Shown here piece after piece: positions 43,112 through 57,555 of a DNA stretch of 64,000 bases. Below the pieces are notes generated by a model that saw nothing but the letters and a program-made list of their open reading frames with translations, did no database searches and was not told where the DNA came from. The position numbers and the translations under genes are program-made. This stretch comes from Fodinibius saliphilus (GTDB lineage Bacteria; Bacteroidota; Rhodothermia; Balneolales; Balneolaceae), in the NCBI RefSeq assembly GCF_005869845.1, contig NZ_VAWF01000001.1, forward strand, positions 806,001-870,000. The letters are read 5' to 3'. Every line of letters starts with the position of its first letter. Position 1 is the first letter of the stretch.

Positions 43112-43456
43112 TTAATCCAAAAGTGTCATCACATCCTGAGCAACTCCCCGATTATATTCAAAAGCCAAACTTTTGTAATTAATGATATCGACAATTGTAC
43201 CGATAGCACATAGTCCACCTGTCAATAGATAAAGTATACCCATCCCCACTTGACCTATAACAAAACGATGAACGCCTGCTATCCCAAAGAAACCAACAAG
43301 AGCAGTAAATAAAATAATCTGCGGCTCTTTTCTGCGGGCCCGATAAACGCGGGCGAATCGTTGTGCTTTCTCATCATTCATCGACGACATAAGTTTAGCA
43401 ATATATGCTCCTTCATCCCCCTCTAATTCTGGCAAAAAATCAATCATTCGGGCCAT
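43112..43456 (-). CDS. TM2 domain protein
   Basis: 114 residues. A 45-residue N-terminal cytoplasmic part, then two hydrophobic helices with the TM2 pattern: FFGIAGVHRFVIGQVGMGILYLLTGG and GTIVDIINY. TM2 proteins are small membrane proteins of undefined function. The start overlaps the DUF2752 gene by 17 bp, and both trail the large Pel-like operon on the same strand. Confidence 0.88.
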   Translation of the reverse strand: MARMIDFLPELEGDEGAYIAKLMSSMNDEKAQRFARVYRARRKEPQIILFTALVGFFGIAGVHRFVIGQVGMGILYLLTGGLCAIGTIVDIINYKSLAFEYNRGVAQDVMTLLD

Positions 43457-43769
43457 AATCTATGTAGTTTCTTTTTTTATTAGTGATTTTGTTATGGATT
43501 AAATATCCAACTCTTCCAACTAAAATAATAATAGCAAATGGGCCTAATATATTTGACTGCATGGCATTACTAATATCTCCGTTAAAAGTATACGCAATAG
43601 AATGCCCCAAGCCGTCGCCTGGACAAAAGGTAATGCCAACCTGTTCAAAAAGACATAGGTCTGGTCCGTTTGCAATTTCAGGATCCATAAGAGCGAGCAA
43701 TATCAATCCGACTGAAAAAGCGGTTATTTCAAAATAATTTCTAAAAAGGTATTTGAGCTGTTCTTTCAT
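43440..43769 (-). CDS. DUF2752-like small membrane protein
   Basis: 109 residues with two or three hydrophobic helices. The central segment CLFEQVGITFCPGDGLGHSIAYTFNGD fits DUF2752, whose members read CP..TG..CPGCG.tRa...l..GD; here the second motif keeps CPG-G but lacks the second cysteine. It overlaps the TM2 gene and lies 43 bp after the deacetylase/porin fusion. Function unknown. Confidence 0.75.
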   Translation of the reverse strand: MKEQLKYLFRNYFEITAFSVGLILLALMDPEIANGPDLCLFEQVGITFCPGDGLGHSIAYTFNGDISNAMQSNILGPFAIIILVGRVGYLIHNKITNKKRNYIDYGPND

Positions 43770-43812: not shown

Positions 43813-46800
43813 TTATTTGCCCAATCTGCGAGGGAAAATATATGAAATGCTAAGGCTCAAACTATTATACCGATAGATTTTACTGGTAGATAAATATCCG
43901 TTGAGTGCCAGATCCCAATATTTATTAATCTGTGCAGTAACACTCCCACTGGCAGCTAAAAAAGCCCCATCTCTATTACTATGTTTTCCCAAAATTTCTA
44001 AACGACTTGAAAATGAAGGATCACTACGCATATTCTGATAACCAAGCTCTACGCCAGCGCCTTTAACTGCAAGGTTATTAGGTGTATAGTATGGAACCCC
44101 GGTCAGGTATCCTATTTTAGCGTCAGCATAAGAAAAATCAACCAGTGGGCGTATTTTTGTCAATCTATTATTATCAAGAACACGATAGTATAGTTTTAAT
44201 AATCCCTCGTAAGAAAAGTTTTTATCAGTATACCATTTTGCAGTGAGTGAAAGAGCTGTTTGAAAACGATTATCGAACCAATGGTCTTCACGATATAATG
44301 TCCCCTCTATTTTGTTGATGTCACCCTGCAACCCAGAATTAGTAAATACCGGCTGTAGTTTAGCCTCAACCGAAGTATAAGTAGAATCTTTAGCAAACCA
44401 GTATCCCAACTGTGCTCCAGGCTTCAAGGAATTGTTTTCCGAATAAATACTTCCCCCTAATATTAATTGGCTGCTTTGGTTATTAAAATTTCTTTTATAC
44501 TTATAATTTACATTATATAAATAATCTATTCTATTACCATTTAATGTATTAGAACTAACATATCGATCATGTATTGATAAGCCGTGCACATATTTTGTCC
44601 GATTTCCCCATTCTCCGAAAATACCTAAGGAGCCTGTATTATTTTCAAAATTATCAGAAGTGAATGAAGCTTCTGAACCCACTATCACTCCTTCACTCTT
44701 ACGATATGTGCTAGTAACTGCCTTTCGCAGGCTATCAGAAAAGAAAGCGGGAAACTTTTTATAGAAAGACTTTTGCTTCTCATATCCCATATAGCCTATT
44801 TCATCACGCACTAACTTCTTACTTTCCTTTTCAGCCTCTCCTGTTTCAAAGAGTGGATAAAGCGTTTCATATCCTAAATCCCTGAACTTTGCATAGATCA
44901 GTTGTTGACCGATATACGTACGCAGCGAATTGTTCTCCGGATTCTTGTCCAGATACTGCTTACTACGATCAATAAATGCATTATATCGCTGCTGCTGCAT
45001 CAACCAACCCAACTTAGTCGTTTCAGCAATCTCTTCTGATTTTTTAGCCCAAAGGCCGGCCCGAGTTAATTGATTTTTTTCTGCATATCGATATGCAATC
45101 TGATCGGCATATGGTATTATTTGCCTTTCGACGAAGGTTGAATCGGGAAAAGACTGCAGTAAATTAATCGTTTGATCTGCATCCCCATAAAATATTGATT
45201 GCTCAATTGCATAACCGTATAACGAATCGGACCGGGGATTTAAATCAATTAGTTCTGAAATATACTTTTTTCGCTTTCCCCAAGTATCTGAGGCTTGCAA
45301 CAGTGATTTAAGTAGTTCAGGATTATCCGGCGTTAAATTATAGGCTCGCTGTAACCATCGATCCCGAAACTCTTGGTTTGGAACACCAAACTGATTGATT
45401 ACCATATCCTTGAATTTTAAAATCGATGAATCATGGTATTTTTTCCAGAGCTTTTCTGTAAATCTATATGCACGATCAGGCATATTTTCCCATCCATAGT
45501 ATTTCAATAGTCGTTCTACATCCTGTGTATACCATTCGCCATTGCTCAGCAGAAGCCGTTCAAGTACAGTAATCGCTAATGGCGTTCTATCAAATTCAAT
45601 AGCCAGCGACAATACCTTTTCTCGCAATTCTCGGCTATTGTGATTGCTGCTATATGCAGCTAACGCCTTTTCGAGCCGCTTATCTGTCCACTGTTGTGTT
45701 CCTTCAACTTCAGATTCCGGAGGATTCATATAATCCTGGTAATCACTTTTCACCTTTGATACAAGCTGCCCCCTTTCTCGCACCTCCTCGCTCTCCAAGA
45801 CCGGCATTTCCAGGGAATCAGAAGTTGTTTTAAACTGATACAAAGCGCCATCCCATAATGGAGACTGCTCAAACGCAATATCTGATGTCGAAAGCGCTTG
45901 TTCTACAACCGGTTGATTCGCTTCGCTTACATAAGTAAACCAATATTTTGATTCATTTTTTGAGTACCGTCTATCCATGGGGACGGTCGAAATTTTAAGT
46001 ACGTTATCCTCATAACTGTACTTACTGTACGTATTGAGCCATCTTTGTGCAATGGGTGCTGCTTCTTTTACAGCTAGAAAACGTGAAACAGGGTATCGTT
46101 CCAAAGTTTCATCCACACGGTTTTTAAAAACCTCATACAAACCAATATCATGTTCGTCATTGCTATGCCAACCTAATCCCCGGGGATTTCTGCTCCTATA
46201 TTTATCTTGAGAGCGCTGGTGAACCTGGAAAACATCATCAGGGTGAACAAAATGATTCCAGATTCCGGTAAAAAGGAAGAGACTATTTTGATTAAAGTTT
46301 GAAGCATTATCGTTCACATACCCACTTGTAATTCGGGGATAATCAAATAACTCTGGAGCATAAGGCTCAGGACCAAATTCACGATCTCCTCCCTCCTCAA
46401 AACTACCCAGATAAATAGAACTTATGTACTTAATACTAGGCATGGTTAAAGAAATTGCTTGTATACCTAATGAATCAATATTGTTTGTAGGTGGTACATA
46501 GGATACGGGAAAACTCCCCAGATTATCTATTCGCCACCGCTTTTTAACAGCCTGCAGAGAGGCTTGCATAAACTGAATATTACTCCAATCCTTCTTCCAA
46601 AGAGAAAAGTGATTGTAGCCGTGCAATCCCAGCTCATGCCGCGAGTCACGAATATCCCGGGCAAGCCAGGCACTAGCATTATATGTTTCCCCATCAAAAG
46701 TTATCTTTCCAGACTTCCATTCTTTAAAATCGAAAGGTGGCACCACCACAGCATTATAATTAAAGGCCATAACTGCTGTATAGTCCATATTATAGGTGTT

Positions 46801-47676
46801 GGCCAGTCTTTTCATATCAGGCCACCAAATTCGAGCAACAAAATCAGCGTGTGTGGTATCATATTCTTCATCCACAGGTTCTAATTTTTCATTATATAGG
46901 GGAGCTGGAAAGTCATCCAAAAATATGGTGCTTACATTAGCAACCCGGTATGGGATACCCTCAAGGGCTTTTAATCCTACGGAAAACAGTAATCCGCGAT
47001 AACTTTTATCGGTCATAACGGTTGTATTGAAATAGATAGAACGCCCCTTTCCTATATCTCTTTGTATGATTGCCGGGTATTCGGAATTTGTGGATGCTGT
47101 TGCTAATACCGACTTGTCATCTACAAAATACTCACCACCAAAGCCATTATGAATAAAAGTTGCCCTATTTTGATATTGCTTACCCTTATAATGGGGAAAG
47201 ACATTTTTCTTAAAGGTAAACCCTTCTGCTGTTTTATTAAGCACCGGATTTTTATTCGGATCTAAACCGGTAAAATACTGGAATCGCTCATCATAAAGGG
47301 GCGATAATATTACCAACTGATTTCCTTCAGCCACAAACTCAAGCAACATTTCCACTTCTTTCTCTTTCATCTGCTCTACCCGATCGGTGGAAAAATATAT
47401 TACCTTAATGGATTTTGGTATTTCCAACTCAGAATCTCCCAGTGTTAAATCATGCGTTTGATATGGGATTTTTGCATACTCCAAAGCCTGTGTGACATTT
47501 TCATTAGAAGAAATGGAAGAAGAATCAAACCGATTTTTAACCACCATGACCAGCGGTTTCGATTCCTCAAAGTTTTGTATAGTAACTTGTCGATCCGAAG
47601 AACACCCTCCACGACACCCACCAAGAGTGGCAATCACCAAAATAACAGCACACAAATAGAGGTAAAGCCTATTCAT
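43813..47676 (-). CDS. PelA-deacetylase/PelB-porin-like fusion lipoprotein (DUF2194 + helical repeats + beta-barrel)
   Basis: 1,287 residues. A signal peptide ends in a lipobox at C21 (LGGC). Residues about 38-245 resemble the glutamine-amidotransferase-like domain found before such deacetylases. About 248-540 is a polysaccharide-deacetylase (DUF2194-type) domain: D254-D255 in IFLDDFPAP, H352-GYN-H356 in LGLHGYNHF, and later H475/H478 in WNHFVHPDD. About 665-980 is alpha-helical with TPR-like spacing (AITVLERLLL, AYNLTPDNPELLKSLL, SKQYLDKNPENNSLRTYI). About 990-1287 alternates as a 14-16-strand barrel ending SLSISYIFPRRLGK. In Pel systems deacetylation (PelA) and export through a TPR-barrel (PelB) are separate proteins; here they appear joined. 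Its start overlaps the upstream gene by 8 bp. Confidence 0.82.
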   Translation of the reverse strand: MNRLYLYLCAVILVIATLGGCRGGCSSDRQVTIQNFEESKPLVMVVKNRFDSSSISSNENVTQALEYAKIPYQTHDLTLGDSELEIPKSIKVIYFSTDRVEQMKEKEVEMLLEFVAEGNQLVILSPLYDERFQYFTGLDPNKNPVLNKTAEGFTFKKNVFPHYKGKQYQNRATFIHNGFGGEYFVDDKSVLATASTNSEYPAIIQRDIGKGRSIYFNTTVMTDKSYRGLLFSVGLKALEGIPYRVANVSTIFLDDFPAPLYNEKLEPVDEEYDTTHADFVARIWWPDMKRLANTYNMDYTAVMAFNYNAVVVPPFDFKEWKSGKITFDGETYNASAWLARDIRDSRHELGLHGYNHFSLWKKDWSNIQFMQASLQAVKKRWRIDNLGSFPVSYVPPTNNIDSLGIQAISLTMPSIKYISSIYLGSFEEGGDREFGPEPYAPELFDYPRITSGYVNDNASNFNQNSLFLFTGIWNHFVHPDDVFQVHQRSQDKYRSRNPRGLGWHSNDEHDIGLYEVFKNRVDETLERYPVSRFLAVKEAAPIAQRWLNTYSKYSYEDNVLKISTVPMDRRYSKNESKYWFTYVSEANQPVVEQALSTSDIAFEQSPLWDGALYQFKTTSDSLEMPVLESEEVRERGQLVSKVKSDYQDYMNPPESEVEGTQQWTDKRLEKALAAYSSNHNSRELREKVLSLAIEFDRTPLAITVLERLLLSNGEWYTQDVERLLKYYGWENMPDRAYRFTEKLWKKYHDSSILKFKDMVINQFGVPNQEFRDRWLQRAYNLTPDNPELLKSLLQASDTWGKRKKYISELIDLNPRSDSLYGYAIEQSIFYGDADQTINLLQSFPDSTFVERQIIPYADQIAYRYAEKNQLTRAGLWAKKSEEIAETTKLGWLMQQQRYNAFIDRSKQYLDKNPENNSLRTYIGQQLIYAKFRDLGYETLYPLFETGEAEKESKKLVRDEIGYMGYEKQKSFYKKFPAFFSDSLRKAVTSTYRKSEGVIVGSEASFTSDNFENNTGSLGIFGEWGNRTKYVHGLSIHDRYVSSNTLNGNRIDYLYNVNYKYKRNFNNQSSQLILGGSIYSENNSLKPGAQLGYWFAKDSTYTSVEAKLQPVFTNSGLQGDINKIEGTLYREDHWFDNRFQTALSLTAKWYTDKNFSYEGLLKLYYRVLDNNRLTKIRPLVDFSYADAKIGYLTGVPYYTPNNLAVKGAGVELGYQNMRSDPSFSSRLEILGKHSNRDGAFLAASGSVTAQINKYWDLALNGYLSTSKIYRYNSLSLSISYIFPRRLGK

Positions 47677-49723
47677 TCAAATATCCTGATTCATTACCCG
47701 GGAAAATATGAAACAAAATGTCGTCAACTTTTGATTCTGTTGGCCGATTTATGATCTCATAAACAGTGGTCGAAGGTCCATCGTAAAATTTTTTAATATT
47801 TCTTTCAGGTAACGCTTTAAAATCTGCTAACCACTGTTCAGCATCACGCATCACCCCTGGAGAATCATACAAAATACCTTGTTGAATATCGCCATATGGG
47901 GCTTTTTCGGTAAATACAAAAATCGATGCAGGAGGAACAACATCAACAGATTCTGATGTCAATTGCTGTTGATAAAGAGAATCAATAGCACCGTATTCAT
48001 CCAAAAAATATTCATAGTCCATATAAAAATGCCTGTTTTGGGCTTGAATACGAAATACTTCTGGCCCCACAGTAGCATATGTATAGGGCAATCGTTCATC
48101 TATAACCTGATAGTAGGCCTCAAAAAAACCATCAGGCATCGTTGAAGGTAGCATTCTGCTTACTCGAATACCGCCCTGCATGTAAATTAATCCACCAATA
48201 ACACCTACTGAAATTACCCACGAGAGTTTAATAACAGTGGCGGATGTAATATCGATCAATCGCTCAGACAACTCAAATAATACTGCTACCAAAAGACTAC
48301 CAAGAACCCCTATCATCAAAGCATAAAATTCATTGAGCTGGGCAGTATCAAGCCAAAATAGTTCAGAAAAATCCAGTAAAGTGGTATACCGCAATGCAAT
48401 TAGGATAAAAACGACTACGAATATTAGCTCATCCCGAATAGTTGAGCCTTTATTCAAAACATAATCAATGAGGTAATAGACCAGCAAACCACCTGCAATA
48501 TATATGTAGTAGAGACTCAACTGTTGAATTGGAAATAATAGTTCCGGGAAATAACTATATGCTTGGATATCATAAAGTTGGGATAATACAAAAGCCTGCA
48601 TATCGGTATCCTTATAAAACCCATAGATTATAAAGGGTAATAACACTACAACGGCCAAACTAAGTAAGTAAGCCGAAAGTCTTAAGAAAGACTTTAGATA
48701 TCTTCGTCTCGGCAGACTTAACAATCCCAAAAACAAAAGCGGAAAAAGGATAACAAAAGCCACAAACAGGTTTGTAAATCCGGTTGCTACAAAGCCTGAA
48801 AGGATATAAAACCAAGGACTTTTGTACGTTGCTCGTAAATTTCTGATGAAAATAGTTAATGTTGGCAGCGCGAAACAGAGGGCTAAATCGATACTGCTGG
48901 CTTCTACCTGTTGGTCCAGGGATATAGGTAAAAATAAGATTGGTACTATAGCATACAGAGACATTCCGACAATTGAAGCAAAAGGATATCGGTTTTTTGT
49001 AATATCACGAGATATCCAATACACAATAATACAGAGAAAAAAGCTGGTTAGTGCTCCTAACAGGTGCAGTATCATTTCAGGGCTAATCTGTGTTAGCATA
49101 CTGAAAATACTTACCAGTGAGTGCATACCTCCTGGTATAGGAGTTTCTGCAAAATACTGCTGTAATCTCAACTTCTTAATACGATCAAGCTGTTCAAACC
49201 ACCCACGGCTAAATGGAGCAGCATGTTGCAAGGCAGGATACATTCTAATGAGTCCCCCCGTTAAGGCAATACCAAAAACAAGAAACCAGTGACTGCCTTC
49301 TTTGGACTCAATAGTAAAAATATTTTTTACCTTCTCTTCAACAGCTTCCCAGTGTGATGTTTCTTCATTTTCAATAATTTTCACTTGTTTAATGAGGGCC
49401 TGTAGTTCCCACTGGCGAAGATATTCTCTCACACTCTGGGCATCACTGCGATATATATTAATAATCAGTGGAATTAGCAGTAAGGTTAATCCCAGACTTA
49501 TAAAGTCGTAGATATGAAGGACAGTAAGGACAAAAACAGTAAATATAATGATACCGCCTAACCCTACCCAAGAATAGATAAGCTTTTCAATATTAGGTAA
49601 ATTTCTTGTATGGGATAAAAAAAGTGGAGCAATGAAACCAAATAACAACACGAAAGTAATAATAATACGTGCCGCCGCAAATAAGGCATCTACCACATAT
49701 GGTAACTGAAAAAAAATGTCCAC
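47669..49723 (-). CDS. Polytopic membrane protein with GT-C-like architecture, Pel-like locus
   Basis: 684 residues. About 13 hydrophobic helices: three near the N-terminus (16-92), a charged cytoplasmic segment (93-145), a central block (145-525) and a soluble C-terminal domain (525-684, containing YMDYEYFLDEYG). A loop after the fourth helix has FSRGWFEQLDRIKKLRLQQYF. The layout resembles GT-C glycosyltransferases or other polymer-handling membrane enzymes, but I find no diagnostic motif. It does not look like PelE or PelD. Position between the hydrolase lipoprotein and the export fusion implies a role in assembling or translocating the polymer. Its stop overlaps the next gene start by 8 bp. 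Confidence 0.7.
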   Translation of the reverse strand: MDIFFQLPYVVDALFAAARIIITFVLLFGFIAPLFLSHTRNLPNIEKLIYSWVGLGGIIIFTVFVLTVLHIYDFISLGLTLLLIPLIINIYRSDAQSVREYLRQWELQALIKQVKIIENEETSHWEAVEEKVKNIFTIESKEGSHWFLVFGIALTGGLIRMYPALQHAAPFSRGWFEQLDRIKKLRLQQYFAETPIPGGMHSLVSIFSMLTQISPEMILHLLGALTSFFLCIIVYWISRDITKNRYPFASIVGMSLYAIVPILFLPISLDQQVEASSIDLALCFALPTLTIFIRNLRATYKSPWFYILSGFVATGFTNLFVAFVILFPLLFLGLLSLPRRRYLKSFLRLSAYLLSLAVVVLLPFIIYGFYKDTDMQAFVLSQLYDIQAYSYFPELLFPIQQLSLYYIYIAGGLLVYYLIDYVLNKGSTIRDELIFVVVFILIALRYTTLLDFSELFWLDTAQLNEFYALMIGVLGSLLVAVLFELSERLIDITSATVIKLSWVISVGVIGGLIYMQGGIRVSRMLPSTMPDGFFEAYYQVIDERLPYTYATVGPEVFRIQAQNRHFYMDYEYFLDEYGAIDSLYQQQLTSESVDVVPPASIFVFTEKAPYGDIQQGILYDSPGVMRDAEQWLADFKALPERNIKKFYDGPSTTVYEIINRPTESKVDDILFHIFPGNESGYLNE

Positions 49724-49752: not shown

Positions 49753-50616
49753 TTATTGCTGCTTGCTCGAAATCCCTTTTGAAATATCATTTAGCTCTAT
49801 CGTGCTTATAAAATATGGCATGCCCAAAGTATCTAACCTGTTACGCGCCAATTTTTTAAGACTATAAGTTTTAGCAAAATCAACAATTAAAAACGGCAGA
49901 TCATATTCTTGTTTTAATTTAATTATTCTATCCACTTTTTCCCGATATGATTCGGTTGACCTGAGATGGTAATCTTTTCGCTTAAAGTTGTAATTAGTAG
50001 CTACATCTTCAATTAGTACGGCATCAATATATTTATGAGTTCTATCCAGCATAAACAGCCCAGCATTCTGAACTACTACCGCCTTGGGATAGCGTTCTTT
50101 AATACCTGCAATTATTTCGAGCATATACGGTTGCAAATGGCTACGCTCAGTATAGGGTGCTACATTATCAATAGTGTCCAAAAAAAGTCCATCATAACCT
50201 TTAGTCATAATGTTTGGTAACACTTTATCCAGCAAGATAGATCGGGTCGTAGAATCTGCTAAATTAAGATATGGGCTATCCCAGTTCTCATTAATACCAA
50301 TAAAGCCCTGTTCTTCCATAAGAGGGTAATACCATCGAAACTTGTTAACCTCTCCCAGCGAAATGTAACCTAACAAGGTATTATCAGGAGTATTTAAGGT
50401 ATCAACAGCTGCTTTTGAATAGTTGTCGGGCTCTACAATAAGCAGATCATACTTTGAAGCTACTTTCTCAAGTGAAGATATGCGCTCATAACTTGCGGCG
50501 AATGGTTCTACATCAATCTTTTTTACAGATTCAGTAGTATTACACGCATCAATCAAAAGAGATATCGAACAAAAGATTAAAACAACATACCTTATCATAC
50601 TAGGCATCCTCTCCAA
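49753..50616 (-). CDS. Lipoprotein glycoside hydrolase (endo-alpha-1,4-polygalactosaminidase/PelA hydrolase-like)
   Basis: 287 residues. A signal peptide with a lipobox (LIDAC) anchors a TIM-barrel domain of the GH114/GH166-like group: YDLLIVEPDNYS near the N-terminus, LLGYISLGEVNKFRWYY, GYDGLFLDTIDNV with candidate acidic residues, VVVQNAG, and AVLIEDVATNYNF. The PelA protein of Pseudomonas carries such a domain N-terminal to its deacetylase; here it is a separate gene, with the deacetylase fused instead to the porin. In-frame ATG codons at 50607 and 50598 are alternative starts; the latter (MIRYVVLIF) avoids the 17-bp overlap with the upstream gene. Confidence 0.85.
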   Translation of the reverse strand: MERMPSMIRYVVLIFCSISLLIDACNTTESVKKIDVEPFAASYERISSLEKVASKYDLLIVEPDNYSKAAVDTLNTPDNTLLGYISLGEVNKFRWYYPLMEEQGFIGINENWDSPYLNLADSTTRSILLDKVLPNIMTKGYDGLFLDTIDNVAPYTERSHLQPYMLEIIAGIKERYPKAVVVQNAGLFMLDRTHKYIDAVLIEDVATNYNFKRKDYHLRSTESYREKVDRIIKLKQEYDLPFLIVDFAKTYSLKKLARNRLDTLGMPYFISTIELNDISKGISSKQQ

Positions 50617-52198
50617 GTTTACAAAGCTCTTTCCAATTCAAATCATTAAGCATTTCGACCGCTGTTGGTATCAAGATCATATCAAACTGAACATCTGCTC
50701 TTTCAATAAGCCTTGATGTTAATTCATCTAACCATTCTTTACCATTTTTAGTATCGTTATCTTTACTACTCTCAATAAACTGTGCTACAAACTCAAACAA
50801 GCCAACAACTTTTCCGGTCCAAACAATTTCATCACCCTCAATGCCATTCGGGGTTCCAGAGCCATCAACCCATTCATGGTGGGTACGTATGCCTTGTTTT
50901 ACACTTTCATCTAATGAAAGATTTTTGATCAGTTTATACCCCAGAGTTGGGTGCTCAAGATCAGAGCCAACCGTTCTCTTGTTAGAATTTTGGCGAAGGC
51001 TTAAATATCCTATATCGTGTAGCTTAGCCGTAAGTAATACATTCTCTTTTTCGCCTTCTCCCATTCCAAAATAATCCCCAAAAGCGTTACAAAGAGCCAT
51101 GACCCGATCCGTATGATATGCAGTCTTATCCCTTTTCCGCTCAATCTCTCGTAGCATTTGGTAATACGTTTCAGTAATACGATTGGTAATATGCTTGTTT
51201 TGATCCTGATACCGAAGGAGCTGTTGCAGGGTCTCTAAAATCACCTTATAATTTTCTGACGATTTAAAATCTTCTCCTTCTCCCCCATCAACAGTAAGAA
51301 TCAAAAAAGTACTGGGAGAAAGCGTATTCATTGGTTCAACAACTAACTGACCTTCATCCTCTGTTAGATCCAATTGATCTTTCAAATAAGCAGAAAGGGC
51401 GTCAGCATTTTCTTTATCACCATCGAAATATTGAATATTAGCCACGAAATTATCGGCCATATTTGCTTTTGCGACCACCATTGGCTCGCTAAGATCAACC
51501 AAGGCTGCCGATTTTGCCATTTTAACCCCCGTAAGATGACCTAGTAACACATTGGCATAACCCGACACTTCAAGCCCCTCAGACTCTAAAGACACGAGTT
51601 CTTTTTCTATTCCCTGCCCTGTAACTTCTCTTACATCATCTCGGTCGTCAGACTCGATCAACCAATTAGAAAGAATCCGACCAATAATTGACAGGCGTGG
51701 AATAATACCACTAGGATTTTCAACATACGGACCCGTACAGTACATTCCACAGAATTCATCTTCATTGAACAAAGGAATACGATGACAGTGACCTATAGGA
51801 AAAGAAGCGCCCCCCATCTCCTTCATTTCCTCATCTATGAGCACTCTCTTTTCCAGATTATCAAGGCGCTGTTCAAATTTTGCTACTTTTTCACTACGCT
51901 CACTGCTGCTCAGTTTACTAAGCGAAAATTTACTTTCCAGATTTTCAGTAAAAACAGATCGATACTGAAGTTTTAATTTCCCTTTCTCATCTTTTAGATA
52001 AACAAAATGAACAGGAGCATTGTAGAGTATGTCCATCCACTCGGCAACTTCATGAAATTCGGGGCTTGCACTTCTTGATAAGTATTCAGCAGCCAGAGCC
52101 CAAAACTCCAATTCATCTTCTAGCTCAAAATCTTCGAGTGAAAAAGCTGAACCCAGTCTCTTGGCAATAGTTTGTACGTAACTTTTAACATCTTTCAT
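50600..52198 (-). CDS. GAF-domain protein with degenerate HD-GYP domain
   Basis: 532 residues, soluble. Residues about 30-180 and 205-330 look like two GAF-type sensor domains; 340-520 is an HD-GYP-like domain. Conserved ligands are seen at H362, H394-D395 (AKLHDIGY), H416 (EHPTLGY) and H440-H441, with D445 in THHEWVDGSG. The GYP triplet reads GTP, the usual lysine after HDIG is tyrosine, and the expected aspartate near the end of the site (in VADVYDAL-type segments) is replaced by glutamate in VGLFEFVAQ. Intact HD-GYPs degrade cyclic di-GMP; this one may bind without cleaving. It stands between pelG and the hydrolase, where a c-di-GMP input is expected in Pel loci. Confidence 0.82.
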   Translation of the reverse strand: MKDVKSYVQTIAKRLGSAFSLEDFELEDELEFWALAAEYLSRSASPEFHEVAEWMDILYNAPVHFVYLKDEKGKLKLQYRSVFTENLESKFSLSKLSSSERSEKVAKFEQRLDNLEKRVLIDEEMKEMGGASFPIGHCHRIPLFNEDEFCGMYCTGPYVENPSGIIPRLSIIGRILSNWLIESDDRDDVREVTGQGIEKELVSLESEGLEVSGYANVLLGHLTGVKMAKSAALVDLSEPMVVAKANMADNFVANIQYFDGDKENADALSAYLKDQLDLTEDEGQLVVEPMNTLSPSTFLILTVDGGEGEDFKSSENYKVILETLQQLLRYQDQNKHITNRITETYYQMLREIERKRDKTAYHTDRVMALCNAFGDYFGMGEGEKENVLLTAKLHDIGYLSLRQNSNKRTVGSDLEHPTLGYKLIKNLSLDESVKQGIRTHHEWVDGSGTPNGIEGDEIVWTGKVVGLFEFVAQFIESSKDNDTKNGKEWLDELTSRLIERADVQFDMILIPTAVEMLNDLNWKELCKLGEDA

Positions 52199-52210: not shown

Positions 52211-53839
52211 CTAAAATGCAGAATAGTAGTAGTAATCAAGGTTTTGAAAAAATCTTTTAGCTATTAAACCAGAAATAATCGCAAAGCAGATTGAACCACC
52301 CAGTAGACCAAACACAGCATATTCAAGAGCAATTATTCGGCTACACAAATAACCAACAAAGATATTTACTACTACCGCTGCTAGTATTGAGCACATTGAA
52401 TATTTCGGTTTGTGTAAGGTGAAAAAGAATAAAGTATGCAACAAGCCTATATTTAAAAAAACATAGGATATGCTGGCAATCCAGAACACCTTCGTTGTCA
52501 TGGGGTTAGCAAAGAAATCACGAATTTCAGGGATTTCATTGCCAAAACTTTTTAAACTGATTACGGAGTAATAGGTAAGGGCTATCGAAATTGCACTTAC
52601 TAGTAACAACAAAATTATTTGTCGAAAATAAAACCTCTTGTAGTATTTATTAAATGATTCTAACTCACTGAATTTAGCCTTTTTCTGTAGAGGCACTAAG
52701 AATTTGGAAAATGCCTCAACACTGTACTCCAGCACTGCCACACTGAGAACTAACGTAAGCAGCGCCCAGTCCATCCCTAGCTCATAAGGGGTATTAAACC
52801 AAATTATATAGGGCGGTGGCGGTGGACCGGCAGACCATGCCAGAATTCGATCCAAAAATAAAAAAAGGAAATATCCAAATCCATAAATAAAATAGCGGTA
52901 GTTAATGTAATAACGGACCTCCGGCTCAGCCAAAGACTGCTCAATATTTTCACTGGGGCCAAATCGTATTTTAAGCTTAAAAAAGAGGTAAGCATATCCG
53001 TACAATGTTCCTGTTGTAATTGCCATGGCTAACCATTGGGAAACATATATCCCCATGTTCATAACCTCCATATTAAATAATACGACAAATGTTCCTGCGG
53101 CAATAATTACTAGTATCGGAATCTGTTGTTGTAAAGCATATAAAACACCCGATCCCAATAGTAAAAAACTTATTAGAACCATATATACTAACCCCAAAAC
53201 GATCATAGGCTGTGGATAAAAAGGGATTACCAGGTTAACCATAAAAAAGAGTAGAGCTAAGAGTAATACCGTAGAGACACCCGCACTTACGATCTGTTTG
53301 GCAGCTTTAAATGCCAGGTTAAAATTATTATTACTCTTATGTGTTGTTACCGACCTGCCCATTACCTGGATAAATCCCCCGGTAATTACAAAAGCCGTTA
53401 TAGTTCCAAAAGCTACAACAGTAGCCTGGGCCTCATTAAACTCCAGCCACGCCCATAACGAATATCGGAAAATAATGACGGCTGCAATCTGGCTTAACAT
53501 CGGAAGTGAAAAAAGCAACCCTTTGCCATAGTAAAAGCAAAAAAACTTTACCTGCTCTAAAAAGCCTGTATTTGTAATTTCGGCAATCTGCTCCCCACTA
53601 TTGGCTTCCTCACGCTTCCTGGTCTCTTTCTTCAACTGAACATATAGGTCGTCAGCTAAGTCAAAAATTGAATCATAGCCGAAATCTTTTTTAACATCTA
53701 CTTCCCGAACCCCTAAAGATTCAATAGTTGCTGCCACGGCCCGCCTACTTAAAGGGTTACCAACCAGTTCTCGTACCTCTTCGGTAAGCTCCTCAACGGA
53801 ATCTATTGTTTTACTTTCAATAACAGGAAGTTCAGACAT
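52211..53839 (-). CDS. pelG: Pel exopolysaccharide transporter PelG
   Basis: 542 residues. After about 95 hydrophilic residues come about 12 transmembrane helices. The family landmark is FGYFLFLFLDRILAWSAG, then NTPYELGMDWALLTL, matching the PelG segment with the buried D and the xYD helix. PelG is a MATE/MOP-like inner-membrane protein that moves the nascent polymer to the periplasm with PelD and PelE. The N-terminal part (SVEELTEEVRELVGNP; DSIFDLADDLYVQL) is longer than in well-known PelG proteins of about 456 residues. The gene overlaps pelF by 8 bp. Confidence 0.9.
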   Translation of the reverse strand: MSELPVIESKTIDSVEELTEEVRELVGNPLSRRAVAATIESLGVREVDVKKDFGYDSIFDLADDLYVQLKKETRKREEANSGEQIAEITNTGFLEQVKFFCFYYGKGLLFSLPMLSQIAAVIIFRYSLWAWLEFNEAQATVVAFGTITAFVITGGFIQVMGRSVTTHKSNNNFNLAFKAAKQIVSAGVSTVLLLALLFFMVNLVIPFYPQPMIVLGLVYMVLISFLLLGSGVLYALQQQIPILVIIAAGTFVVLFNMEVMNMGIYVSQWLAMAITTGTLYGYAYLFFKLKIRFGPSENIEQSLAEPEVRYYINYRYFIYGFGYFLFLFLDRILAWSAGPPPPPYIIWFNTPYELGMDWALLTLVLSVAVLEYSVEAFSKFLVPLQKKAKFSELESFNKYYKRFYFRQIILLLLVSAISIALTYYSVISLKSFGNEIPEIRDFFANPMTTKVFWIASISYVFLNIGLLHTLFFFTLHKPKYSMCSILAAVVVNIFVGYLCSRIIALEYAVFGLLGGSICFAIISGLIAKRFFQNLDYYYYSAF

Positions 53840-55403
53840 CTGCCTTCACCTCCTCCATAACTTTTTTTACAGCGGACAATCCTATACCACCCGATTGAGG
53901 AATATGTTTCTGCTCATGAAAAGATTGGTATAAATTTCGATAATTATTCACAGATTTCGTGATAGTATATTTTAACAATACTCGTGAACGAGCCTTCTGT
54001 CCCAACTCAATACGAAGGTCATCATCTTCCAGAAGTTTTATAACTCCATCTGCTAGTTCCCTGGCATTTCTAGGTTTACATAATATACCACACCCTTCTA
54101 CAGCTTCTCTAACACCACCAACATCGGTTGCTACTACAGGGCGAGAGCAACTCATCGACTCCAATACTGTATAGGGGAACCCTTCAGATATTGAGCTGAG
54201 AATTGATAAATCCCCTTCATTAAATATTTTGCTGGGCGTATCATGATATCCACCGAAGGTAAAGTGGTCTTCCAGGTTTAGCTCCTCAACAAGATCTTTA
54301 CACTTTTGCACATAGGCCTTATCTACTTCTAGACTACCATAAATAATATATTGTACGTCCGGGATTTCACGACGAACCAGCTCACAGGATCGAATCATCG
54401 TTTCTATATCTTTCAATGGAAATACATGTGCTACCGCAACCACTGTAGGTTGATCCTGAGTATGTTCTGGTTTAGGCTGAGGACGAAACAGATCAGCATC
54501 TACTCCATTATATATCGGTCTAATACGATCCTCAGTTGCCTCATACTTTTTTTCCCACTTTGCATTAATTGAAGTAACAGGGGCAATTCGGTCGGCAAAA
54601 TAGTAGACAACACGAGTCATAAAAGTTGACATATTTACCAGTAGACGCTGAGAGAAGTAGGACATATCTTCCTGACTCACGTTAATCAGGCGTTCACGAA
54701 TATATACCCCATGGTCCGTCACCACCATGGGGGTTCCATATTCAAATTTTGCCACAATAGAAGAAATTGCTGGAAAACCAGCCAGGGTAGCATGAGTAGC
54801 ACTCACCTTTGGGATATCGACAGCCAACGGCATCATAAAATGATAGATCCATCGCATTCCGAAAGTTACATCAAGCATACTGGGATGCTCAGAATCACTA
54901 TGATCTCCCAAATCTGCAAAATACTGTTCCAGACGCCGTTTAAATGCATCCCACAATAATGGATGACTCAATGTCTTTTTGTAATCAAACCGCTGGAAAA
55001 ACTTCCAGAAACCATATATAAGTTCACCTGCCTGTTCAGCAGATTGGAAAGGATCAAAGATATGATCTAAAAATCTACGGTACATTGGCATAAAAAGCTG
55101 CTCAATGACATCATTTGAAGTATTAGCCTTTTTGAGCAGATGTTCAGAAAAAGGCCGATCCTTATCAAAATGACTAACCGGTTCTTCAACACCCCACAGA
55201 GGAATATGAATAATTGATTTAATATTTGGAGTTTTACGATAACGGGCCTCTACATAGGGATTCCCCGTCAATGCCATAATAATAAAATCAATATCATCTA
55301 CTAACTCTGTACACAAAATATGGGCCCAGGTAGACACACCTCCACCGGAGTAAGGATAGGATCCCTCAGTTTCAAATAATATGGTGGGTTTTGAGTTAAT
55401 CAT
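53832..55403 (-). CDS. pelF: Pel glycosyltransferase PelF (GT4 family)
   Basis: 523 residues, cytoplasmic. The N-terminal DUF3492 domain has FETEGSYPYSGGGVSTWAHIL, the PelF hallmark; the C-terminal GT4 domain has VAVAHVFPLKDIETMIR, IIYGSLEVDKAY and the E-x7-E motif EGFPYTVLE followed by RPVVATDVGGVREAV. In Pseudomonas PelF polymerises the Pel sugars from UDP-GalNAc-type donors. The start overlaps the second PelF-type gene by 8 bp and the stop overlaps pelG by 8 bp, so translation is probably coupled. Confidence 0.93.
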   Translation of the reverse strand: MINSKPTILFETEGSYPYSGGGVSTWAHILCTELVDDIDFIIMALTGNPYVEARYRKTPNIKSIIHIPLWGVEEPVSHFDKDRPFSEHLLKKANTSNDVIEQLFMPMYRRFLDHIFDPFQSAEQAGELIYGFWKFFQRFDYKKTLSHPLLWDAFKRRLEQYFADLGDHSDSEHPSMLDVTFGMRWIYHFMMPLAVDIPKVSATHATLAGFPAISSIVAKFEYGTPMVVTDHGVYIRERLINVSQEDMSYFSQRLLVNMSTFMTRVVYYFADRIAPVTSINAKWEKKYEATEDRIRPIYNGVDADLFRPQPKPEHTQDQPTVVAVAHVFPLKDIETMIRSCELVRREIPDVQYIIYGSLEVDKAYVQKCKDLVEELNLEDHFTFGGYHDTPSKIFNEGDLSILSSISEGFPYTVLESMSCSRPVVATDVGGVREAVEGCGILCKPRNARELADGVIKLLEDDDLRIELGQKARSRVLLKYTITKSVNNYRNLYQSFHEQKHIPQSGGIGLSAVKKVMEEVKADV

Positions 55404-56598
55404 TATATACTGAACATCCTTTTAATAGCTGATCAAATATTGTTCGGTAACGGTTAAAAATATGCTCCCACCTATGATTCTCAGCTACTAAAAGAGACTT
55501 CTCATTGACGATTTTCCGCCAATAAAATGGATTATTCCATGCTGATAAAACACTGTTTAGCAAACCCTTAGTGCTCTCATCTTTATTTTTTATAATACCA
55601 TACCTATTGGTAACGTCCCCAGCTTTCCAACCTATAGGTAATACCTTACGAGCCAAAGCTTCAAATAAAACCAGCGGCTGTGATTCATTATGACTAGTAA
55701 TGCATAAAGCATCCATCTTATCTATATACTCAACCGTAGATTTATTCCATACCAGTCTTAACTCAGGATACTCCTTGCTTTTTTTGTGAACCGCATCAGC
55801 CAGTTTTGGTTCATTAGCATCGCAGCTAAGCATCATAAACTCTATACCATCGACCCCCATTTTTCTAGCGGCATCTGCTAAGGAAAAAAATTTAAGTGGA
55901 TTCTTCATTTCGGCACACCGCCCTATCCATCCTACCGTTAAATCCCCTTGATATTCCTTTTCTTTCTTTATCCAATTCCCCGGAATGCCATTTGGAATAT
56001 ACTGCACATTAGTTGCTCCCATTCTATGTTGCTCTTCCATATTGCATTCGGACACAGAAACGACCTGGTCAGCAACCTTATAGATACCCTCAGCCATTTT
56101 TTTAAACATCTCTGTATATTCATTTTTGAGCTGCTCTCTATCAGGAATTTTATATCCACATTCCAAAGCTACGGCCCCCATGTCTATCTCCTTCCAATAA
56201 AGAGCATGCTCTGTCAATAACAGAGGTTTTCCTGTATCTACAGCCACTTCCTTACCCAACCACCCTGCGAAACCGGTATTCGCAATATGAACCAGATCAC
56301 ATTTACTTACTATCTGTTTAGTCTTTTCTTCTACACTTTTTTTCCATTGTTGGGATTCATCCAGCCAATTCTTTTTTAAACTTGGGGGTGGAATTCGACA
56401 AAAGGAATGCAGGTGCTCTGGAACCTCATACAAAGCTTCCGAAACCGGGGCATTTAAATATTGGTCCGTGGCAACCTGAAGAATATGAAAGCGCTGGTTA
56501 TGACAGGCCTTCATATATTGGTGAACCCATTCACTTACACCACCCCGATACCAAGGGTAAGTGCCTTCTATCACCAATAGAATATCCGTGCTGCCCAT
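55396..56598 (-). CDS. Second PelF-type glycosyltransferase (GT4 family)
   Basis: 400 residues. Its start, VIEGTYPWYRGGVSEWVHQYM, is the same N-terminal signature as PelF, but the protein is about 120 residues shorter. The GT4 half has IPNGIPGNWIKKEKEY, TVGWIGRCAEMKNPLKFF and an E-x7-E motif ESQPLVLFE. It precedes and overlaps pelF, so the locus carries two tandem PelF-like enzymes. A role in adding a second sugar or priming the chain is plausible. It lies 27 bp after the REC-GAF gene. Confidence 0.88.
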   Translation of the reverse strand: MGSTDILLVIEGTYPWYRGGVSEWVHQYMKACHNQRFHILQVATDQYLNAPVSEALYEVPEHLHSFCRIPPPSLKKNWLDESQQWKKSVEEKTKQIVSKCDLVHIANTGFAGWLGKEVAVDTGKPLLLTEHALYWKEIDMGAVALECGYKIPDREQLKNEYTEMFKKMAEGIYKVADQVVSVSECNMEEQHRMGATNVQYIPNGIPGNWIKKEKEYQGDLTVGWIGRCAEMKNPLKFFSLADAARKMGVDGIEFMMLSCDANEPKLADAVHKKSKEYPELRLVWNKSTVEYIDKMDALCITSHNESQPLVLFEALARKVLPIGWKAGDVTNRYGIIKNKDESTKGLLNSVLSAWNNPFYWRKIVNEKSLLVAENHRWEHIFNRYRTIFDQLLKGCSVYND

Positions 56599-56625: not shown

Positions 56626-57555
56626 CTATGATTTAGTATACATACGCCATAAAACTGAACCAGTCTGAACCAATAACCGCGAAAGCATTTGATACTCTTC
56701 TGTAGTAAAAAGCTTATTTCTTTTAAGTATGAATAGCCCAAACAACTCTGCATTATCAGGCACTTTCATATCGTTCATTAGTAATCTCTTTTCATCCGCT
56801 GCAAAAAGAGGTACCGTTATTTCTGAAGATAGGTCATGTTTTTTTGAAAAACTTTGCATAATGCCTTCCCCTTCCCCAAAAACATTATTAGATAAATATG
56901 GCTGACCTTCTTTTTTTAGCTTTATAAAAGTCCCTTCATTAGGCAAGTCTTCTGAAAAGCTATAACCGTTTGTAGAATACTTATTGGAATCACAAATGAG
57001 TTCCGGCACACCATCGGATATTTCACAAAAAGCAACATAATCAAGATTGAATTCTTCAAAGATATCGTCACACAAATCCTTAATAAGAGTCTGAAAATCG
57101 CTGTTACGCGCATCAGACATTATTTTTTTAATAAGCTTGTTCTTTTTATTTACAAGATCACCCACTTCCGGTACTACTACATTAGTGACTAGCTTCAGTT
57201 GTACAGTCTCAAGTAATTCATCGTGGTTGCTGATAATTTCAGATTTATTGATTACATCAGCAGCACCATAAGTTAAAGCCTTTTCCTTTTTCTCTTCTGT
57301 CGGCAAATTACTCATTACCAACACTGGAATTTGTTTCTTAAGAGAATCTTTTTTCAAAACCTGTACAAAATCAAGACCATTTAGTCCCGGCATATATATA
57401 TCAGCAATAACAAGATTTATTGGCTCTTTAGACAAAATATCGATTCCCTCTTGGGCATCATTGGCATGAACTACCTTATAGTCATCCGATAACACCTTAT
57501 CTATGAAAATATGCATCGGCTTATCATCATCAATTACTAATATTTGATAATCCAT
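56626..57555 (-). CDS. Response regulator receiver domain with C-terminal GAF-like domain
   Basis: 309 residues. Residues 1-120 are a receiver domain with acidic D9-D11, phosphoacceptor D52 (LVIADIYMPGLNG) and the conserved lysine K104 (VINKSE). Residues about 150-305 form a GAF-like domain (FNLDYVAFCEISDG, LSSEITVPLFAADEKRLL, FGLFILKR) with no DNA-binding or enzymatic output domain. It is the first gene of the Pel-like cluster, and a histidine kinase is not visible nearby. It likely acts through protein contact, perhaps with the GAF/HD-GYP protein. It is divergent from the TonB receptor gene. Confidence 0.85.
   Translation of the reverse strand: MDYQILVIDDDKPMHIFIDKVLSDDYKVVHANDAQEGIDILSKEPINLVIADIYMPGLNGLDFVQVLKKDSLKKQIPVLVMSNLPTEEKKEKALTYGAADVINKSEIISNHDELLETVQLKLVTNVVVPEVGDLVNKKNKLIKKIMSDARNSDFQTLIKDLCDDIFEEFNLDYVAFCEISDGVPELICDSNKYSTNGYSFSEDLPNEGTFIKLKKEGQPYLSNNVFGEGEGIMQSFSKKHDLSSEITVPLFAADEKRLLMNDMKVPDNAELFGLFILKRNKLFTTEEYQMLSRLLVQTGSVLWRMYTKS

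Follow-up and report, generated by a model that had tools for sequence, protein, structure and literature searches.

A conserved protein of Bacteroidota joins a PelADA-like deacetylase to a predicted exopolysaccharide porin within a pel-type operon

In the best-studied bacteria, the exopolysaccharide deacetylase and the outer-membrane channel are separate partners, whereas the gene described here is predicted to unite them in one protein. It lies at positions 43813–47676 (minus strand) of a 64,000-nucleotide stretch of Fodinibius saliphilus DNA (NCBI RefSeq assembly GCF_005869845.1, contig NZ_VAWF01000001.1, positions 806,001 to 870,000 of the forward strand), which is referred to below as the window and whose own numbering is used throughout. 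In the Pel system, an AlphaFold model of the PelAB complex has the deacetylase and alpha/beta domains of PelA, and not its hydrolase domain, touching the tetratricopeptide repeats (TPRs) of the porin PelB, and the PelAB interaction enhances deacetylation (PMC12022489). PgaA and PgaB form another partnership of a deacetylase with a TPR porin (PMC12022489). In Bacillus cereus, PelADA deacetylates alpha-1,4-GalNAc oligomers, is anchored in the cytoplasmic membrane, has been modelled on PelG, and is the founder of the families CE26 and CBM114 (PMC13254593). Because a BcsZ–BcsC fusion has been reported in Zymomonas (PMC7112194), an enzyme–pore fusion as such has precedent; like the protein studied here, it joins a periplasmic polysaccharide-acting enzyme to an export pore, with the difference that the enzyme is a cellulose hydrolase and not a Pel-type deacetylase.

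The gene is a single intact open reading frame (ORF) of 1287 codons without an internal stop, and the layout proposed for it in a first-pass annotation of the window (lipobox, DUF2194-like deacetylase domain with D-D and HxxxH motifs, TPR-like helices and terminal beta-barrel) was recovered in full. All parts are on the minus strand. Residues 1–21 (47614–47676) read as a signal peptide, with a hydrophobic segment at residues 3–21 and a lipobox-like LGGC at residues 18–21 (Cys21). Residues ~41–240 (46957–47556) make up an alpha/beta domain that corresponds to the CBM114 domain in B. cereus PelADA, as judged from alignment to its structure 9ZAU and from ThuA-like/GATase-like folds at Z 13–16; residues ~245–548 (46033–46944) make up a CE26-type deacetylase domain, as judged from the same alignment, from conservation, and from polysaccharide deacetylase folds at Z 18 (domain names for PelADA from PMC13254593). 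A small beta-rich domain (residues ~549–625; 45802–46032) is predicted from secondary structure. The TPR-like helical solenoid (residues ~666–996; 44689–45681) appears in the predicted structure and in profile matches, with a TPR_19 match in the relative at locus L032, and the C-terminal 16-strand beta-barrel (residues 997–1287; 43813–44688) is assigned to the PgaA/BcsC/PelB fold by predicted structure and fold comparison. A scan of the fusion protein against NCBIfam matched no family.

The full chain exceeds the 1200-residue limit for modelling, and AlphaFold models were made as two overlapping pieces. The first (residues 30–1010; predicted local distance difference test, pLDDT, 88.4; predicted template modelling score, pTM, 0.65) contains the alpha/beta, CE and small beta-rich domains up to ~625, followed by a single helix at 633–650. 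The second (residues 560–1287; pLDDT 89.3, pTM 0.62) contains the helical repeat and the 16-strand barrel, with a low-confidence linker at ~652–664, helical repeats at ~667–995, and strands, counted by hand, at ~998–1280. The ratio of nonsynonymous to synonymous substitution (dN/dS) was 0.04–0.10 across all three parts of the protein in three sequence pairs (one with dS >2), a fourth pair being saturated; thus, purifying selection acts on all three parts.

Within the enzyme half, Pfam DUF2194 spans residues 29–564 (E 7.4e-71), and of the solved structures only 9ZAU, the structure of B. cereus PelADA, is significantly related (phmmer E 7e-41 over residues 59–563; profile 1.1e-76). The key residues described for PelADA are the base D262, the metal ligands D263 and HxxxH, the arginine R458, the acid H488, and D490/D491 (PMC13254593). 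These align to D254, D255, H352/H356, R448 (the base-activating arginine of CE26), H478, and D480/D481 of the fusion, given an offset of 25 between the 9ZAU chain index and the published numbering that was deduced from motif positions, and the mapped residues are invariant in all 104 aligned fusions (88 distinct). A VIA comparison of the piece 30–1010 placed two polysaccharide deacetylases at the top, 3rxz (Z 18.3, root-mean-square deviation (rmsd) 3.2, 228 residues aligned) and 3qbu (Z 18.2), followed at lower scores by human NDST1 (Z 16.4), Pseudomonas thermotolerans PelA 9cgy (Z 15.3, rmsd 8.4, 449 aligned, chain 279–846), and Agd3 (Z 14.9, 501 aligned). Foldseek returned human NDST1, which is not a Pel protein, as the top match, and 9ZAU was not among the structural matches listed for this piece. 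The predicted N-terminal fold thus points to a deacetylase of this superfamily with a preceding alpha/beta domain, and not to PelA in particular.

The enzyme half had been called PelA-type in the first-pass annotation, a label that needs amending. By homology, it is of the CE26 PelADA type and not CE21 PelA; PelADA itself is also placed outside CE21 in PMC13254593. No PelA homology was detectable by profile in the PDB, and hhalign against four PelA sequences gave a probability of 0.3%, a figure from a thin, four-sequence profile that leaves room for remote homology; canonical PelA was set aside as a sequence match on this result. Hydrolase and deacetylase, which share one chain in CE21 PelA, are encoded separately here, the hydrolase being represented by a GH114-type gene. 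The canonical PelA, PelB and PelC sequences used for such comparisons came from four of six annotated proteobacterial loci; two alphaproteobacterial loci lack an annotated PelB, and the unannotated locus L148 was left out.

The second half is predicted to have the PelB-like layout, in which a TPR solenoid leads into a beta-barrel porin. A profile of the helical region found designed TPR and PPR proteins as its top PDB matches (best E 4.5e-5), and the divergent relative at L032 carries a Pfam TPR_19 match of 82.7 bits along with a weak PgaA_barrel match (E 0.0064). In the VIA comparison, the barrel was closest to PgaA 4y25 (Z 24.5, rmsd 3.1, 272 aligned), followed by BcsC (Z 23.5, 23.1 and 22.8, the first being 6tzk with rmsd 5.1 and 320 aligned) and PelB 9h80 (Z 22.6, rmsd 6.2, 314 aligned), the next family being CymA at Z 16.2. 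Foldseek ranked BcsC first and PelB third for the piece 560–1287, and PgaA was not among the 50 best matches listed. The best VIA match comes from the PgaA/PgaB system for PNAG export and deacetylation, whose polymer and enzymes differ and whose two components are encoded by separate genes. As to sequence, Pfam B-barrel_PelB_C had no match in the fusion at E 0.1, and none of the 395 genomes of the phylum sampled below had the Pfam PelB barrel (built-in controls positive in 0/14, canonical pel/PelB records in 4/4). Canonical PelB was also rejected as a sequence match by hhalign, at 1% for the barrel and 15.8% for the helical part only, again with a four-sequence profile that could miss remote homology. 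The model suggests the fold of an exopolysaccharide porin, without telling which, and it is the operon that points to Pel. The term "PelB-type", also used in the first-pass annotation, therefore rests on fold and operon, not on sequence; on the Z scores, PelB is level with BcsC and slightly below PgaA.

The fusion is conserved and widespread, not a peculiarity of a single genome. Among 395 genomes of Bacteroidota, full-length DUF2194 occurred in 27, always within frames of 1268–1349 codons, and PelF, counted at its curated cut-off, occurred in the same 27 genomes. A 28th genome with DUF2194 above cut-off (G196: 30.8 bits, positions 59–153 only, 696-codon frame) was removed before this comparison, DUF2194 matches below cut-off occurred in 18 further genomes, and some related GT4 glycosyltransferase was present in 394 of the 395. 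No probability is attached to the 27/27 overlap, as kinship among the genomes would make any such value optimistic. A wider scan, covering 84,980 species by a single genome each, detected 314 stretches that encode relatives. The best 80 were retained as named loci; a complete fusion frame (1264–1586 codons) was present in 77 of these, and the other three were cut by a contig end. Ranking by similarity to a fused query favours fused forms, so the 27/27 correspondence is the better measure. The same single frame was seen in all 26 fetched loci. Among the best 80 of 314, the closest named relative was Fodinibius halophilus (76% identity), and the genera included Fodinibius, Balneola, Gracilimonas, Flavobacterium, Maribacter, Salegentibacter, Roseivirga, and Sphingobacterium. 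A crude lipobox pattern matched 68 of the 88 distinct fusions, and several fusions outside the pattern still carry a suitable cysteine; such a cysteine is absent from a Balneola group and from the fusions at L032 and L084. Separately, Fodinibius sediminis has in one strain a second pel locus, at which the fusion (L073, 7989–12749) reaches 1586 residues through a C-terminal extension with a weak SPOR match (E 0.068).

The gene ends a tight run on the minus strand that leads from position 57555 downward to the fusion, with several neighbours overlapping by a few bases. A response regulator with a weak GAF match below cut-off is first (56626–57555), followed by a second, PelF-like GT4 glycosyltransferase (55396–56598; 88.6 bits against a cut-off of 100), the PelF glycosyltransferase (53832–55403; NF038011, 169 bits against 100), a PelG-type transporter (52211–53839; PF16933, 34.9 bits against 29), a soluble protein with an HD domain at the place of PelD (50600–52198; HD_5 E 1.1e-10, no transmembrane (TM) segment), a GH114-type putative endo-galactosaminidase with a signal-like N-terminus (49753–50616; PF03537, 47.5 bits against 27), and a 684-residue inner-membrane protein with about 10 predicted TM segments (47669–49723), whose frame overlaps the start of the fusion. 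Downstream of the fusion, the same strand encodes two small membrane proteins (43440–43769 and 43112–43456). The GH114 protein is the putative functional counterpart of the PelA hydrolase domain, encoded separately. The 684-residue protein, whose homologues have 9–13 predicted TM segments, matched no Pfam or NCBIfam family, and seven homologues gave only two sub-threshold matches at chance level; it is a candidate to stand in for PelE or the membrane portion of PelD. No family match to PelD or PelE was found in the operon, where the HD-domain protein and the 684-residue protein occupy those places, and a four-sequence PelC profile, which recognized both of the records used in building it and both of two independent control records, found nothing in the 27 fusion genomes. 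The HD-domain protein (50600–52198, minus strand) carries HHEWVDGSGTPNG, which we take to resemble the HD-GYP motif with GTP replacing GYP; the protein may be a c-di-GMP enzyme or sensor.

The usual order, pelF–pelG–GH114–membrane protein–fusion, is stable. All 26 fetched loci have the four partner genes, as do, upstream of the fusion, all 69 named loci whose upstream flank reaches 7.7 kb; the 11 of 80 named loci with a shorter flank were left out, and the fetched and named sets share genomes. In 25 of the 26 fetched loci, the membrane protein's frame runs into the start of the fusion, whereas in L032 other genes stand between the two. Less constant are the HD protein (22/26 fetched and 16/69 named loci) and the second GT4 glycosyltransferase of the window's type (21/26 fetched loci). 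At L050, the GH114 gene is broken into two ORFs (104 and 168 residues), possibly by a frameshift. At L043 (G364), extra copies lie upstream of the intact operon: a 220-residue PelG piece, a GH114 ORF of 284 residues, and the TM protein in two pieces.

These functions occur in split as well as in fused form. The pel operon of Cetobacterium somerae, read in one of its two matching records, has a stand-alone DUF2194 protein of 609 residues, GH114, a GAF protein, a 292-residue protein read as membrane-plus-helices, PelF, PelG, and a 305-residue protein read as outer-membrane-like, and Fusobacterium vincentii appears to have the same gene order from the GAF-position gene through the outer-membrane-like gene. 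The stand-alone DUF2194 proteins of these Fusobacteriota start with a hydrophobic segment, as read by eye. Co-culture with Porphyromonas lowers four genes of F. nucleatum, namely the DUF2194 gene, pelF, pelG, and one for an endo-alpha-1,4-polygalactosaminidase (PMC9848294). The pel-linked outer-membrane-like protein of Fusobacteriota was considered as a homologue of the fusion barrel and found no support, in a comparison with only two sequences on one side. The PelG proteins of these loci (L140, 15735–17852; L141, 16051–18369) have 705–772 residues, with a long C-terminal extension past the PelG domain that is repetitive in F. vincentii. Four proteobacterial plasmid loci encode PelA and PelB in two genes that lie side by side. 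At alphaproteobacterial pel loci (L144, L146), a large hypothetical protein and a gene of the polysaccharide export family replace an annotated PelB; the hypothetical protein of L144 (1588–5481) has an RTX repeat and weak ThuA-like and deacetylase matches.

We consider it probable that the fusion is a one-chain device for the modification and export of a Pel-like alpha-1,4-GalNAc polymer. To judge from their families, PelF would make the polymer and PelG, perhaps with the unclassified membrane protein, would pass it across the inner membrane. The periplasmic solenoid would guide the chain and deliver it to the CE26 cleft, where the N-terminal CBM114/CE26-like unit would strip acetyl groups at its metal-dependent site, and the deacetylated chain would exit through the fusion's own 16-strand barrel. 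The barrel would keep the protein at the outer membrane, with an N-terminal lipid as a second anchor in most relatives. Such a protein would fill the roles of a separate deacetylase and PelB, possibly making PelC unnecessary. With somewhat less confidence, the balance leaning only slightly in its favour, we regard the locus as a third kind of Pel machine in Bacteroidota, with a five-gene core (pelF, pelG, GH114, the protein of 9–13 TM segments, and the fusion) in which fusion to an export pore brought a Gram-positive-type CE26 enzyme to the outer membrane, and in which PelB, PelC, and probably PelD and PelE are unnecessary.

Several observations weigh against a Pel-specific device. By sequence, neither half matches canonical PelA or PelB; the barrel fold does not single out PelB, as PgaA scores higher, BcsC scores level, and Foldseek ranks BcsC first; the barrel-like protein of Fusobacteriota shows no relation to the fusion barrel; and, at pTM 0.62 and 0.65, the placement of the domains relative to one another is uncertain. 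With no PelC, PelD or PelE recognized in the operon, the polymer could also differ from Pel, and the operon may make and export some other amino-sugar polysaccharide that the CE26-like domain modifies. This alternative gains from the divergence of PelG, only a few bits over its cut-off, from the second glycosyltransferase in most fetched loci, and from the closeness of the barrel to BcsC and PgaA, and we judge it unlikely given that PelF exceeds an equivalog cut-off, that the catalytic residues of a GalNAc-polymer deacetylase are kept, and that a GH114-type gene accompanies the fusion in every fetched locus (split in L050) and every named locus with enough flank.

That the barrel is an anchor and not an exit, serving to display or tether the enzyme at the outer membrane while the polymer leaves by another route, seems to us quite improbable. 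The export role is deduced indirectly, and the barrel also aligns to OmpG and CymA (Z 14–16), neither of which exports exopolysaccharide, but the three exopolysaccharide exporters score about 6 Z units above other porins, the order of solenoid then barrel is that of BcsC and PelB, and no Pfam-type PelB barrel occurs in the 395 genomes (other porin types were not searched for). The chance that two genes were joined through a sequencing or assembly error, a concern raised in the first-pass annotation, is negligible: nothing was found in its favour, and such an artefact is ruled out by the single frame shared by relatives (26/26 fetched loci; 77/80 named loci, with three at contig ends) together with purifying selection throughout.

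Set beside its closest counterparts, the one-chain device resembles B. cereus PelADA in its order of alpha/beta, CE and beta-rich parts, its mapped catalytic residues, and its pel operon. PelADA differs in being a stand-alone protein of a Gram-positive bacterium with an N-terminal TM helix, whereas the fusion adds a solenoid and a barrel and mostly has a lipoprotein-type signal; the same enzyme would have been relocated from the cytoplasmic to the outer membrane through fusion to a pore. With Pseudomonas PelA–PelB, it shares a function set and the placing of alpha/beta and deacetylase domains at the TPRs of a porin, and it holds counterparts of exactly the two PelA domains that touch PelB, the hydrolase having its own gene. 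The Pseudomonas system has two chains where the fusion has one, and the fusion system has a separate hydrolase and no PelC that was found. The first-pass annotation had taken the fusion as Rosetta-stone support for PelA–PelB contact; because neither half is recognizable by sequence as canonical PelA or PelB, this support is limited to the coupling of Pel-type deacetylation to a pore and does not extend to a literal contact of orthologous proteins. A survey of related genomes, which that annotation had proposed, showed the fusion to recur across the phylum, with stand-alone DUF2194 proteins in two Fusobacteriota species.

None of the open-licence PMC papers that literature searches listed describes this deacetylase–porin fusion, in line with the first-pass annotation, and neither "Bacteroidetes" nor "Bacteroid-" appears in the main texts of PMC7112194, PMC7112168, PMC12022489, and PMC13254593. 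Because the homologue survey in PMC12022489 demanded >85% PelA coverage, the fusion would fall outside it. What is new is a conserved deacetylase–pore fusion as a variant of Pel/exopolysaccharide export, not a new kind of system, and its biochemical role would be that of modification joined to export. How the PelA–PelB interaction coordinates deacetylation with export has been stated as unclear (PMC12022489), and the fusion, with enzyme and pore tied together in one chain, would offer a stoichiometric, structure-ready version of that complex. The locus also points to a Pel-type system that uses another enzyme family and in which no PelC was found, in a phylum that the four Pel papers above do not name in their main texts; surveys using PelC, PelB or full-length PelA would miss such a system.

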